A program made the position numbers and the translations under genes. From Candidatus Nomurabacteria bacterium RIFCSPLOWO2_01_FULL_39_18 (lineage in GTDB: Bacteria > Patescibacteriota > Minisyncoccia > Phycocordibacterales > UBA9973), in the NCBI GenBank assembly GCA_001787005.1, contig MFUV01000004.1, positions 64,911-105,769 on the forward strand: DNA of 40,859 nt, read 5' to 3'. Shown piece by piece: positions 25,896-30,257 of this stretch. Position 1 is the first letter of the stretch; each line of letters begins with the position of its first letter. Under the pieces are notes generated by a model. That model did no database searches, had not been told where the DNA came from, and saw only the letters and a list, made by a program, of their open reading frames with translations.

Positions 25896-26255
25896 TTACT
25901 CTTTCTTTAGAAGATAGAAAAGAGTTAGTGGTGCTCCCCAGTTTGCGAAGCGCTCGATGAAATCCCAAACCGACTGTCCAACTATTGGTCGCAAAATTGC
26001 TGTAAAAAATCCCCAAAATGCCATCCAGAGAAGCAATGGCCTCACTGGACGAAACAAAACTATCAGAGCTAAGATTATGTCAACTACTCCGATAGCCAAT
26101 ATAATATTTAGGGCTGTGGGTTGGCTGAAACCGGATAACTTTTCCACCCACCCGACCCAGTCTGCTTTTCCACCCAAGGCGAGGGCTCCATGTCCCATAA
26201 ACTCACCGGCTACTGCAATCCTCAAAATCCACTGCATTATTTTTTCTTTATTCAT
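25896..26255 (-). CDS. DoxX-like membrane protein
   Basis: 119 residues and four hydrophobic segments. RIAVAGEFMGHGALAL and VEKLSGF in the first part are DoxX-like; PVRPLLLWMAFWGFFTAILRPI is the third helix. DoxX relatives interact with quinones or oxidative-stress enzymes, but function is not fixed. TATAAT lies at 26279-26284, 23 bases before the ATG. The gene points away from the B12-dependent operon, with a 247-base shared intergenic region. Confidence 0.75.
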   Translation of the reverse strand: MNKEKIMQWILRIAVAGEFMGHGALALGGKADWVGWVEKLSGFSQPTALNIILAIGVVDIILALIVLFRPVRPLLLWMAFWGFFTAILRPIVGQSVWDFIERFANWGAPLTLFYLLKKE

Positions 26256-26390
26256 ACTTTGTATCTTGTTAATTAATAATTATAACTAAAATTAATCTGA
26301 AAATTTGTAAAAATTTACTAATAAATAAGTATCTATAATCAAACAGCCTCGACAAACTATTTTAATTATAGCATAACTAGTTATCCACTT

Positions 26391-26451
26391 TTCATAAATC
26401 AACACCTTGAGAGTATAATGGTTTAGTAGTTGCGCAACTATGCAACTTATT
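26391..26451 (+). promoter_or_regulatory. Promoter and operator of the B12/ribonucleotide-reductase operon
   Basis: TTCATA (26391-26396), 17 bases, then TATAAT (26414-26419). Immediately downstream is TAGTTGC (26427-26433), 8 bases, GCAACTTATT (26442-26451). The first half also forms a perfect 12-bp palindrome AGTTGCGCAACT (26428-26439). The position at the expected start of transcription suits a repressor. The same TAGTTGC-N8-GCAACTTATT occurs before arsR at 29899-29923. Confidence 0.7.
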
Positions 26452-26502
26452 CATTATACACCCCGTTTGTCATCTCTCCAAGCGGTTCTAACAACTTCGA
26501 TC

Positions 26503-27048
26503 ATGGAAACACACAAAAAGAATTGGTTCAAATATATTGTCGGGTTTATTACTTGTCTCCTGATTCGGCTTATTCCATTTCGTCCCCCCAATATTGAGCC
26601 AATACTGGCGACACAAATGCCGTTCTCGAGAGCGTACGGGAAGATCGCTGGATTTTCGTTCGCGTTTTTAAGTATGGTTCTCTTTGACGTTTTAACCGCA
26701 AAAGTCGGAATGTGGACTTTCATCACCGCAGGCGCCTACGGGTTTCTGGGGTTGTGGGCGTCGTTCTATTTTAAAAATAAAAGCAATAGCTCGTGGAATT
26801 ATGCAAAGTTTGCCGTTATGGGAACTCTTGCTTTTGACATTGTTACTGGTCTCTCTATCGGCCCGCTTTTCTTCCGCCAGCCATTTATGGAGGCACTGGT
26901 CGGACAGATCCCTTTTACCGCACTTCATCTTGTAGGAAATATCAGCTTTGCGGTCTTTCTCTCTCCGTTTATTTATCGATTCATCATTGAGAATAAAAAA
27001 TTTGAAACGCAGTCAATCATGGCAATTTTAAAACTAAAACGAATATGA
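26503..27048 (+). CDS. ECF-type transporter S component, probably for cobalamin or a precursor
   Basis: 181 residues from ATG at 26503; an ATG at 26440 would add 21 residues but lies inside the proposed operator. Six hydrophobic segments, a size and pattern like ECF substrate-binding (S) subunits: SFAFLSMVLFDVLTAKVGMWT, AYGFLGLWASFYF and GQIPFTALHLVGN. Its stop overlaps the ATG of the B12-dependent reductase (ATGA), and an adenosyltransferase follows, so B12 is the likely substrate. The energising EcfAAT subunits are not in the window. Substrate is inferred from context only. Confidence 0.7.
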   Translation: METHKKNWFKYIVGFITCLLIRLIPFRPPNIEPILATQMPFSRAYGKIAGFSFAFLSMVLFDVLTAKVGMWTFITAGAYGFLGLWASFYFKNKSNSSWNYAKFAVMGTLAFDIVTGLSIGPLFFRQPFMEALVGQIPFTALHLVGNISFAVFLSPFIYRFIIENKKFETQSIMAILKLKRI

Positions 27049-29327
27049 AAAATAATATAAATAAGAAAAAATATTCCCCGCTCCAGCAAATACAGAAACG
27101 CGACGGCATGATAGTTCCCTTTGATGAAAAACGCATAACTCGCGCTATCTTCCGAGCAATGCAATCAGTGAAAGAGGGTGATGAAATACATGCTACCCAA
27201 GTAATGTATAGAGTACTGGATGCGCTTCTAGTCCTAAGAGAAGAGAAGGAAATAAAAACTTTTATCCCGCACGTCGAGACAATACAGGATATTGTAGAAA
27301 ATGAGCTTATCGCTTCGAATTTTTTAGCAACAGCGAAAGCCTATATCCTTTATCGAAAAGAAAGATCATTAGTGCGAGAAAAAGTTGGTTTTGTGCCCGA
27401 AAAAGTAAAAAGTTTGGTTGCTGAAGGTAAAAAATATTTTAGAAATTCGCTTGCTGAATTTGTTTACTATCGTACCTATGCAAGGTGGATAGAAGAAGAA
27501 GGTCGTCGTGAAACATGGATTGAAACTGTTGATCGTTATGTTAATTTTATGCGCGATAATATAAACGGCAAACTCACCGAAGCGGAGTACGCAGAAATTC
27601 GAGAAGCAATTCTTAAACAAGAAACGATGCCGTCCATGCGTCTTTTGCAATTCGCAGGCAAAGCAACCAGGCGGACAAATGTTTGTGCATATAATTGTTC
27701 CTTTATTGCTCCGAAAAGTTTCCAAGATTTTGCGGAGATTATGTATATCTCTATGTGCGGAACCGGAGTTGGCTGGTCGGTAGAAAGTGAAAACATCCAA
27801 GCGCTTCCGCAGATTCAAAAGCAGACGGGCAAAAAACTTCCAATCTATATAATCCCCGACAGCAAAGAGGGCTGGGCAGATGCGTTTGCTCTTGGTCTCA
27901 AGACATGGTTTACGGGGGGAGATATTATTTTCGATTATTCTCTTATTCGTCCTGCCGGCTCACGTCTTAAAACTATGGGGGGCAAGAGTTCAGGGCCCGC
28001 CCCGCTTCGATCTCTTCTTCTGTTTACTCGGCAGCGTGTGTTGCGTCGCCAGGGTAGACACCTGTCAAATTTAGATGCCCATGACATTATCTGCAAAATC
28101 GGTGAATGTGTCGTAGCGGGCGGTGTCCGCAGAAGCGCTATGATTTCACTTTCTGATTTAGATGATGAAATGATTCGCGACTCAAAAAAGGGTCAATTTT
28201 ATATTTCCGAGGGACAAAGAATGCTGGCAAATAATTCGGCAGTGTATCTTTCAAAGCCAACCACGACCGAGTTTCTGGAAGAATGGATCGCTCTAGTAAA
28301 GTCCGGTAGTGGCGAGCGAGGAATATTCAATCGCGGTGAGCTCTCCGGCACATTGCCAAAAAGAAGGCTTAACCAATGGAAAAATGGGGTGTACCCATCG
28401 TGGGGAACAAATCCGTGCGGAGAAATTGTTTTACAATCCAAACAATTCTGCAATCTTTCGGAAGTTATCGCAAGAGCAGATGACACTGAAGAGAGTTTAC
28501 TGCGAAAAATTCGTGTCGCGACGATATTGGGAACTTACCAATCAACTCTTACTTACTTTCCGTATCTATCAAAAGAATGGAAAAAGAATTGCGAGAAGGA
28601 GAGACTGCTTGGCGTATCCATCACCGGACAATGGGATTGCGAAAGAGTTCGTGATCCAAAGATCCTTGAAAAAATGAAGTTGACCGCAATTGAAACAAAT
28701 AAAAAATACGCAAAACGTTTTGGCATAGAACATTCAACTTGTATTACCTGTGTAAAGCCCTCAGGAACAGTTTCGCAAACAGTTGATTGTGCGAGCGGCA
28801 TGCATCCTCGCCACTCGCCATATTACATTCGCCGTATTCGCATCTCAGCCACCGATGCGCTTTTAAAAATGCTTAAGGATCAAGGCGTGCCGTATTATCC
28901 AGAAGTCGGACAAACCCTTGAAACTGCATCGACATTTGTACTTGAGTTTCCAGTCAAAGCGCCCGACGGAGTTATTTGCAAAGACGATATAAACGCGATT
29001 GCGCAACTAGAACATTGGAAGATAGTTAAACAACATTTTACTGAACACAATCCCTCAGTTACCGTTTCTGTTGGAGATGATGAGTGGTTAAAAGTTGCGA
29101 ATTGGGTGTACGAGAATTGGGATTTAGTCGGCGGGCTTTCATTCCTACCTCGCTCAAATCATATTTACCAATTAGCTCCATACGAGGCAATCACGAAAGA
29201 AAAGTACGAGGAAATGAAAAAACGTCTTGGCGATTTAGATTTTTCAAAAATTGTCACTTATGAAAGAGACGACGAGACAGAGATTAGACGTGAGCTTGCC
29301 TGTGTGGGCGGTCTTTGCGAAATATAA
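27045..29327 (+). CDS. nrdJ: Adenosylcobalamin-dependent ribonucleotide reductase (class II, RTPR-like)
   Basis: 760 residues. The N-terminal ATP cone (QIQKRDGMIVPFDEKRITRA, about 15-110) is an allosteric dATP/ATP site. The catalytic barrel has NVCAYNCSF (redox Cys), AGGVRRSA, TNPCGEI with the thiyl-radical Cys near residue 458 and FCNLSE, its partner Cys. The C-terminal C753-GGL-C758 pair re-reduces the active site. It makes deoxynucleotides using coenzyme B12 and needs no oxygen. No NrdA/B or NrdD is in the window. Overlaps the transporter gene by 4 bases. Confidence 0.95.
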   Translation: MKNNINKKKYSPLQQIQKRDGMIVPFDEKRITRAIFRAMQSVKEGDEIHATQVMYRVLDALLVLREEKEIKTFIPHVETIQDIVENELIASNFLATAKAYILYRKERSLVREKVGFVPEKVKSLVAEGKKYFRNSLAEFVYYRTYARWIEEEGRRETWIETVDRYVNFMRDNINGKLTEAEYAEIREAILKQETMPSMRLLQFAGKATRRTNVCAYNCSFIAPKSFQDFAEIMYISMCGTGVGWSVESENIQALPQIQKQTGKKLPIYIIPDSKEGWADAFALGLKTWFTGGDIIFDYSLIRPAGSRLKTMGGKSSGPAPLRSLLLFTRQRVLRRQGRHLSNLDAHDIICKIGECVVAGGVRRSAMISLSDLDDEMIRDSKKGQFYISEGQRMLANNSAVYLSKPTTTEFLEEWIALVKSGSGERGIFNRGELSGTLPKRRLNQWKNGVYPSWGTNPCGEIVLQSKQFCNLSEVIARADDTEESLLRKIRVATILGTYQSTLTYFPYLSKEWKKNCEKERLLGVSITGQWDCERVRDPKILEKMKLTAIETNKKYAKRFGIEHSTCITCVKPSGTVSQTVDCASGMHPRHSPYYIRRIRISATDALLKMLKDQGVPYYPEVGQTLETASTFVLEFPVKAPDGVICKDDINAIAQLEHWKIVKQHFTEHNPSVTVSVGDDEWLKVANWVYENWDLVGGLSFLPRSNHIYQLAPYEAITKEKYEEMKKRLGDLDFSKIVTYERDDETEIRRELACVGGLCEI

Positions 29328-29331
29328 TCGT

Positions 29332-29901
29332 ATGTTATACACCGGAAAAGGCGACAATGGAACAACGAAACTCTTTGATTGCCCGCAGGGCAAGAGAGTT
29401 AGTAAATCTGAGTTTGTCTTTGAAGTGCTCGGGACGCTGGACGAGCTTAACTCATCGCTTGGATACGCAAAGATACTTTCAAAAAAATCAAAGGATACAC
29501 TCTTTATCGAGACAAGAAAAGTTTTCTATGAAGAAATTCTTGATAAGCTTCAACAAAATTTATTTTGTATTCAAGCGGAATTGGGAGGATCGGATATACA
29601 TCCAACCAAAACTCATATAGATTATCTTGAGAAAGTTGTACATGAAGTAGACACGTTGCTTCCTCCAATTAAATCTTTCGTTATTCCCGGAGGAGGAGAG
29701 ACGGGAGCGTATCTGGACATCGCGCGAACCATTGCACGGCGAGCAGAAAGAGGGTGTGTGATTTTGCGAGATAAGAAAGAAAGAAAAATTGACGATATGA
29801 GTCTGCAATTTTTAAACAGACTTTCGAGCGTACTGTACGCTCTTGCTAGGTTTGCAAATTATCAAGAGGGATATACAGAGAAAAGACCCATATATCAATA
29901 G
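29332..29901 (+). CDS. PduO-type cob(I)alamin adenosyltransferase
   Basis: 189 residues from ATG at 29332, 4 bases after the reductase stop. MLYTGKGDNGTTKLF is the N-terminal ATP-binding motif; GTLDELNSSLGYAK, IPGGGETGAYLDIARTIARRAER and FLNRLSSVLYALARFAN are the other PduO (ATR) signatures. It builds adenosylcobalamin from cobalamin and ATP, the cofactor required by the reductase just upstream. Family proteins act as trimers in the cytoplasm. Upstream in-frame starts would lie within nrdJ and are rejected. Confidence 0.93.
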   Translation: MLYTGKGDNGTTKLFDCPQGKRVSKSEFVFEVLGTLDELNSSLGYAKILSKKSKDTLFIETRKVFYEEILDKLQQNLFCIQAELGGSDIHPTKTHIDYLEKVVHEVDTLLPPIKSFVIPGGGETGAYLDIARTIARRAERGCVILRDKKERKIDDMSLQFLNRLSSVLYALARFANYQEGYTEKRPIYQ

Positions 29902-29923
29902 TTGCATTTTCTCGCAACTTATT
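29899..29923 (+). promoter_or_regulatory. Candidate operator upstream of arsR
   Basis: TAGTTGC (29899-29905), 8 bases, GCAACTTATT (29914-29923): the same half-sites, spacing and flank as at 26427-26451. TATATC just upstream may be a -10. Suggests autoregulation. Confidence 0.6.
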
Positions 29924-29936
29924 TCATACTTCAACT

Positions 29937-30257
29937 ATGAAAGCGGTCACAAAAATAAAAAGACCTTTGCCAAGAATAGCGTATGAGCAAAATGCAGTAA
30001 CGTATAAAATACTAGCTAATTCAAAGCGCTTAGAAATTTTGAATCTCTTGCGGGAACAGGAAATGCCCGTAGAAACACTTGTAAAAGAGCTCGGCATCAG
30101 CAAAGCCAATGTGTCTCAGCATCTGGCGCTCCTTCGCCACGCAAGGCTAGTAACAGTACACAGAAAGGGCCTGAACGCCTTCTATAATATAATTGATCCC
30201 CGAATTGTCGAACCATGCCGCATTCTGCATAAACTTTCCCATAAAGACAAAAGTTAA
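29937..30257 (+). CDS. ArsR-family winged-helix regulator
   Basis: 106 residues. Winged helix-turn-helix: SKRLEILNLLREQEMPVETLV, ELGISKANVSQHLALLRHARL (recognition helix) and VTVHRKGLNAFYNII (wing). The classic metal site ELCVCDL is absent; the only Cys is in EPCRIL near the C-terminus, so it does not look like an As/Cd sensor. Its place after the reductase and adenosyltransferase genes, plus the shared inverted repeats, suggests it represses this operon and itself; the ligand may be a cobalamin form or redox state. It overlaps the convergent cupredoxin gene by 4 bases. Confidence 0.9.
   Translation: MKAVTKIKRPLPRIAYEQNAVTYKILANSKRLEILNLLREQEMPVETLVKELGISKANVSQHLALLRHARLVTVHRKGLNAFYNIIDPRIVEPCRILHKLSHKDKS

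Follow-up and report, generated by a model that had tools for sequence, protein, structure and literature searches.

Among the described systems closest to the locus considered here, RexT is an ArsR protein without a metal site that acts as a redox switch (PMC8960804), and the class II ribonucleotide reductase (RNR) of Pseudomonas aeruginosa is induced without oxygen via Anr/Dnr as well as by a nitric oxide (NO) donor (PMC4860495). NrdR often controls its own gene (PMC9110341), and a coenzyme B12 riboswitch is reported on the Streptomyces nrdABS operon (Borovok 2006, as cited in PMC5962746). The locus in question lies in a 40,859-nt stretch of contig MFUV01000004.1 (the window), from the 813-kb genome of Candidatus Nomurabacteria bacterium RIFCSPLOWO2_01_FULL_39_18, and comprises an operon for a transporter S component, the class II RNR NrdJ and a cobalamin adenosyltransferase, followed by arsR, the gene of an ArsR/SmtB-family protein. 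One inverted repeat stands after the -10 box of the operon and again just before arsR, and the original prediction took the pair for operators of an ArsR regulon of B12-dependent deoxynucleotide (dNTP) synthesis. Judging from related genomes, it is rather probable that an autoregulated ArsR repressor silences the oxygen-independent RNR as long as class I is active, acting as a switch between RNR classes. The core idea of an ArsR regulon without a riboswitch is strongly supported by the sequence comparison; the B12 label is, by the genes found under the operator, too narrow, and "oxygen-independent RNR" fits instead. To our knowledge, hardly any transcriptional regulon has been described for Patescibacteria.

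The inverted repeats and their promoters

Both repeats are exact matches to the predicted sequence, TAGTTGCGCAACTATGCAACTTATT at 26427-26451 (site 1) and TAGTTGCATTTTCTCGCAACTTATT at 29899-29923 (site 2), and they are indeed the only two sites in the window at up to three mismatches, against 0.13 expected in shuffles. The whole genome holds three exact copies of AGTTGC-N8-GCAACT and none with a single mismatch, and a reversed-pattern control gave no exact match; such a repeat pair is far beyond chance. The check for abundance of the motif at unrelated places in the genome came down to one exact site elsewhere, at G000:C4:144091 between rplB and rpsS in the S10 ribosomal operon, with one difference from site 1 across 20 bases. 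The rplB-rpsS gap itself (L006:5500-6500, G000:C4:143500-144500) is ~1 kb long and holds several short basic open reading frames (ORFs) led by Shine-Dalgarno sequences, together with terminator-like hairpins, the operator site there lying over promoter-like sequence on the - strand. Because a perfect 14-bp palindrome, TAGTTGCGCAACTA, is contained in site 1 and likewise in the third site, site 1 additionally having a third half-site, and because one distant orthologue (L057) has TAGTTTCGAAACTA ahead of arsR, the comparison suggests an operator made up of a 14-bp core plus an extra half-site.

The consensus of 22 sites reads AGTTGC-GAAAnnAT-GCAACT-A, that of the 12 operon-type copies TAGTTGCGAAACTATGCAACTA, and that of the arsR copies TAGTTGCATTTTTTCGCAACTT, or AAGTTGCGAAAAAATGCAACTA on the opposite strand. 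The half-sites change in pairs, to GGTTGC/GCAACC in L043 and L046. Conservation had been thought limited to the half-sites, which does not hold among orthologues: the operon spacer GAAACTAT is alike at 4.4 of 8 positions when the arsR copies are read on the opposite strand, vs 2.1 of 8 as read, and a likeness of 4.4/8 was equalled in 11 of 10,000 letter shuffles. Because the opposite-strand arsR spacers resemble the operon spacer, the spacer is partly conserved and the operon and arsR copies are opposite in polarity, a feature that is not visible from two window sequences alone. The TATT flank common to the two window copies is not kept in orthologues and was rejected as part of the operator.

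The features of the locus, with the operators and promoter elements as predicted, are these:

26381..26388, + strand: putative DnaA-box-like element TTATCCAC, sharing eight bases with the 9-base DnaA box TTATCCACA; the -10 box lies 33 bp downstream
26414..26419, + strand: operon -10 box TATAAT, read directly; TATAAT or TATACT in identical placement relative to the operator in relatives
26427..26448, + strand: predicted operator O1 of the S-component/nrdJ/pduO operon, TAGTTGC-GCAACTAT-GCAACTT
26503..27048, + strand: ECF transporter S component for vitamin uptake (PF07155, 28.9 bits, cut-off 26.7)
27045..29327, + strand: nrdJ, class II adenosylcobalamin-dependent RNR with ATP cone (PF03477, PF17975, PF21995 and PF02867 above cut-off)
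29332..29901, + strand: pduO-type cob(I)alamin adenosyltransferase (PF01923; TIGR00636 above cut-off)
29899..29920, - strand: predicted operator O2, reading AAGTTGCGAGAAAATGCAACTA
29902..29907, + strand: arsR -35 box TTGCAT, inside O2
29925..29930, + strand: arsR -10 box CATACT, 6 bp ahead of the start codon
29937..30257, + strand: arsR, winged-helix regulator with Cys94 invariant in alpha5 and no alpha3N Cys motif (PF01022, NF033788; 39-sequence alignment)

The operon copy lies ~8 bp after TATAAT, and O1 is matched by the genome-wide motif model at E 3.4e-5, O1 being itself a training member. At the other end of the operon, where the + strand TAG of O2 is the pduO stop codon, nine close orthologues have an equivalent of O2 ~40 bp ahead of arsR. 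In the window and nine relatives the palindromic site is predicted to extend over -35 to -10 of arsR: it overlaps a -35 box TTGC(A/G)(A/T), with 17 bp, a -10 box (e.g. CATACT), 6-7 bp and the ATG following, and the gap is exactly 17 bp in the window and in 9/9 relatives examined. The arsR mRNA is predicted to be leaderless and its operator to straddle the promoter core. The positions first proposed for the two repeats, after the operon -10 box and just before arsR, are read in the window and in its relatives alike, and both placements, over -35/-10 and just after -10, would suit repression.

The enzyme of the operon has the RNR alpha/barrel and the B12-type insertion domain by which class II is recognised, and scores 297.6 bits against TIGR02505, under the 340 cut-off. 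By context, the substrate of the S component would be cobalamin. At L037 a CobA/CobO/BtuR protein is found in place of the PduO adenosyltransferase.

Distribution of the regulator, its sites and its targets

Across the 84,980 species genomes scanned, Nomurabacteria/Paceibacteria yielded 12 orthologues of the ArsR with identities of 77-96%, and about seven more came out at 62-63%. The usual gene order in the close group is S component, nrdJ, adenosyltransferase or another gene, and arsR, the last being divergent from nrdJ in G116, G140, G253 and G279. In nearly all close orthologues arsR is preceded by a site at ~40 bp, and the S component or nrdJ has one of its own upstream; a search upstream of orthologous genes, as originally suggested, thus sees the motif recur before operon and arsR in a dozen related genomes. 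A motif model built from site sequences only finds 1-3 strong sites in each close-group ArsR genome, almost all at the operon and arsR promoters. The operon site of G149, outside the training set, was found at E 1.5e-5, and 32 congeners without ArsR gave a single match under E 0.01, inside a coding ORF. An exact-pattern scan of 60 genomes placed six of nine sites in the three ArsR genomes; two sites lie in coding sequence, dnaE in G018 and a methyltransferase-like ORF in G003, go with no arsR and were taken as chance.

Class I beta (PF00268) and nrdJ are nearly exclusive in an order-wide sample, both being present in 11 of 247 genomes where ~50 would be expected if they were independent. ArsR occurs in 8 of these 11 dual-RNR genomes vs 2 of the 236 others (Fisher p 2.4e-11), with a genus-level association at p 1.9e-6, values that kinship of the genomes inflates and that include many incomplete metagenome-assembled genomes. 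Within the genus, ArsR is found in 3/3 dual-RNR genomes and 0/33 others, nrdJ-only congeners being without it, and class I is present in 16 of 17 further ArsR genomes; the regulator appears to follow possession of two RNR classes, not B12 use. The source genome carries class I nrdAB elsewhere, in an operon where the genome-wide motif model finds no operator site. A search of 53 genomes for NrdR, with a control that was positive in 9/14, gave no match. In G069, G070 and G016 class I beta lies in frames of 424-467 amino acids, and in G069 and G070 the same frame holds an ATP cone.

The predicted targets extend beyond B12. At L046 the operator precedes nrdD (TIGR02487) and the activase gene nrdG (TIGR02495), both clustered with arsR, and this class III RNR works without B12; that genome has class I and, by ATP-cone matches, no nrdJ. 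A B12-only regulon was rejected, since nrdDG replaces nrdJ at L046 and nrdJ-only genomes are without the regulator. What stands of the proposed regulon is the operon plus a putatively autoregulated arsR, on comparative footprinting and on co-occurrence of motif and regulator; its restriction to B12-dependent synthesis falls. An operator site is also common to nirK in L052 and L039. In L052 this copper nitrite reductase gene (TIGR02376 above cut-off) stands on one side of the site and a PNPOx-like gene on the other, with arsR next after the latter; in G001 the site lies between the nrdJ operon and nirK. At L217 and L219 a ~56%-identical ArsR adjoins tatC/tatA, ahead of which come TATAAT and a site resembling the operator. 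Operator-like sequences were also seen at L227:1501-1519 (G149; E 0.0066), before a gene of the aspartate ammonia-lyase/fumarase family, and at L222:1501-1525 (G116; AATAGTTTCGAAAAATTGAAACTATCGG, E 0.008), before a secreted protein gene that adjoins a cupredoxin-like gene.

The putative DnaA-box-like element TTATCCAC recurs at 33-34 bp from the -10 box in nine operator-bearing nrd promoters, class III nrdD included (window, L044, L045, L046 nrdD, L047, L049, L050, L051 and L053); three more distant promoters have it at 38-42 bp, and the nrd promoters of G001, G149 and G279 lack it. It is found near several nrdJ operons without ArsR as well. In E. coli, DnaA controls nrdAB via such boxes (PMC8203912).

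Other neighbours vary. A DoxX-like membrane protein is encoded at 25896-26255 (- strand), divergent from the operon, and also at L037, L044, L045 and L049, with other DoxX-like genes in that position at L046 and L050. At L039, L043 and L209 the adenosyltransferase is followed by DUF4430 proteins and by a DUF4430-like/SQHop-cyclase-like surface protein, all of which resemble transcobalamin-like B12 binders. The nrdJ of L057 (1360-5112) is interrupted by ~1.4 kb within a single long open frame (1272 amino acids), probably an intein, and nrdJ frames of similar length occur in G092 and G205.

The regulator, the proposed circuit and its alternatives

The window ArsR, of 106 amino acids, scores 52.1 bits against PF01022 (cut-off 22) and 78.9 bits against NF033788 (cut-off 55), and belongs with ArsR/SmtB proteins by this winged-helix domain and by the predicted palindromic operator at its own promoter. 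Its nearest solved structures by sequence are HlyU and SmtB. Alignment bears out that it is without the metal Cys motif of ArsR: neither it nor its close orthologues have the alpha3 Cys pair of the ELCVCD-type alpha3N site. The alpha5 ligands of SmtB and CzrA are Asp-x-His ... His/Glu; across 39 aligned sequences these are not kept, DPR...C94 replacing D-x-H. Cys94 is invariant in 39/39, out to Nitrospirae and Acidithiobacillus. Redox-sensing ArsR proteins of the RexT, SqrR and BigR kind have two Cys per chain and form a disulfide or polysulfide; with the single Cys per chain found here, an intersubunit or mixed disulfide, or other Cys chemistry, is possible. In profile searches the protein showed neither a known B12-binding domain nor one that binds nucleotides, such as an ATP cone, and it matches the ArsR profile only and not that of NrdR (TIGR00244, zinc ribbon plus ATP cone). 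Distant relatives occur in Nitrospirae, Deltaproteobacteria, Ignavibacteria and Acidithiobacillus, and a few of them adjoin SQR-like and DsrE-like proteins (read by eye), hinting at redox or sulfur roles; upstream of the distant relatives nothing clearly matched the operator.

We propose that the ArsR/SmtB-family protein from 29937-30257 uses both inverted repeats as its operators. Its dimer would cover the -35 to -10 region of arsR, repressing its own leaderless promoter, and would cover the region just downstream of the operon -10 box, repressing S-component/nrdJ/pduO. In cells that also hold the oxygen-dependent class I enzyme, the oxygen-independent RNR would be held off until a signal releases it; in most genomes this RNR is class II NrdJ, along with genes for B12 uptake and adenosylation, and one genome has class III NrdDG instead. 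The releasing signal is probably oxygen-, redox- or NO-linked and would act through the single invariant Cys94 of alpha5, a best guess resting on the invariance of that residue, on RexT as a metal-free redox ArsR and on Anr/Dnr control of a class II RNR. The sites are conserved, lie at promoters and go together with the regulator and with dual RNRs, all of which points to this circuit; what we infer is that the protein binds DNA, that it represses and does not activate, and what it senses. A wider reading, which we hold only tentatively, would make this single-cysteine ArsR of ultra-small bacteria an anaerobiosis (oxygen, redox or NO) regulator that stands in for FNR/Anr and NrdR and has a small regulon of the resident oxygen-independent RNR, nitrite reductase and Tat export.

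Besides the kinship and incompleteness of the genomes already mentioned, several observations weigh against the proposed class switch. The dual-RNR genomes G054, G099 and G132 are without a close ArsR, and the ArsR genomes G093 and G260, in which a ~56%-identical ArsR adjoins tatCA, are not dual; in G070 no nrdJ was seen, although arsR, site and class I are all present. G001, with class II only, keeps the site before its nrdJ operon and has no detected arsR. The sites of the ~60%-identical group are degenerate and missed by the model in G073-G076, nrdDG stands under operator and arsR in one case only (L046), and the third site of the source genome, in the S10 operon, finds no explanation in the model. 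Activation instead of repression remains an alternative.

Of the other explanations, the best placed, although unlikely, is that NO or nitrite is the signal and that NirK and the oxygen-independent RNR are induced jointly, as in the Pseudomonas Dnr regulon. It agrees with the placement of the site in G001, where the nrdJ operon and nirK flank it, and in L052, where it lies between nirK and arsR, and with the induction of the P. aeruginosa class II enzyme by Anr/Dnr and by an NO donor (PMC4860495); most ArsR genomes, however, are without a strong site at other loci such as nirK, and G010, where nirK adjoins nrdJ, has neither arsR nor the site.

Sensing of a cobalamin form, tuning uptake, adenosylation and NrdJ jointly, was among the signals first suggested. 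It would suit the operon of most genomes, in which a vitamin S component and nrdJ stand with an adenosyltransferase of PduO or CobO type, often with DUF4430 proteins as well, and it would suit the want of a riboswitch: no Rfam RNA reaches the gathering threshold in the window and none appears at E up to 1 within 26100-27100, so that a cobalamin riboswitch upstream of the operon was rejected at Rfam thresholds, in line with the non-riboswitch control originally envisaged. Yet L046 has the B12-free nrdDG under an equal operator and arsR, nirK and tatCA carry the site too, nrdJ-only genomes with a B12 module (e.g. G010) have neither arsR nor operator, and the 106-residue protein has no known B12-binding domain by profile. 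Because the regulator tracks two RNR classes and its predicted targets include nrdDG, nirK and tatCA, cobalamin-form sensing is quite improbable, and oxygen/redox or nitrogen-oxide status fits better.

A regulator of dNTP or RNR demand, that is, a stand-in for NrdR sensing nucleotides or 5'-deoxyadenosyl compounds and not oxygen, would account for the lack of NrdR in 53/53 genomes and for a regulator that follows RNR redundancy. We consider it a poor candidate: the protein lacks a nucleotide-binding domain, the class I operon lacks the site, and nirK, tatCA and the aspartase/fumarase-like gene, which may share the site, are not predicted by dNTP control. Cobalamin or dNTP sensing is in either case less consistent with the target set. 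It is most improbable that the repeats work at the RNA level, as a stem in a leader or between cistrons, and not as a DNA operator: both fold into stems of 6-7 bp (83-nt leader, z -2.6; 51-nt stretch around O2, z -3.3) and the half-sites change in pairs, but a dyad DNA site would give equal paired changes, the hairpin would be weak and has no Rfam match, the arsR copy precedes the -10 box of arsR at a fixed 17-bp promoter spacing, and the operon and arsR copies are of opposite polarity.

Comparison with known systems

Our literature search found no report of an ArsR protein controlling RNR, nor of one sensing cobalamin, and no earlier report of an ArsR circuit on oxygen-independent RNR in Paceibacteria. 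Regulator, operator sequence and target set are predicted jointly here, and purified protein and synthetic DNA suffice for testing them, with no need to grow the organism. If true, the proposed class switch would show how reduced genomes without NrdR choose between oxygen-dependent and oxygen-independent synthesis of DNA precursors.

The circuit resembles Anr/Dnr control in P. aeruginosa in that oxygen-independent RNR would be controlled apart from class I and denitrification genes would share the regulator; Anr and Dnr are CRP/FNR-type activators, whereas an unrelated ArsR-type protein, probably a repressor, is predicted here. Like NrdR, it would be an RNR-gene regulator, and NrdR too is often autoregulating; NrdR has an ATP cone and senses nucleotides, in contrast to the present system, where it was not found in the 53 genomes and the class I operon is without a site. 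The Streptomyces nrdABS riboswitch, as far as the citing paper describes it, is likewise an RNR class switch in a genome with class I and class II; there an RNA sensor acts on the class I operon, and here, with no riboswitch, a predicted protein site lies on the class II/III operon. With SmtB, CzrA, HlyU and RexT the window ArsR shares the winged-helix fold by profile, a palindromic operator and the placement of that operator over its own promoter. It differs from them in having no alpha3N Cys motif and in not keeping the alpha5 metal ligands, and from RexT in its one invariant Cys in place of a vicinal Cys pair. The predicted target sets it apart from the known ArsR/SmtB repressors as well, being an RNR operon, and would, if true, extend ArsR-family control to ribonucleotide reduction.

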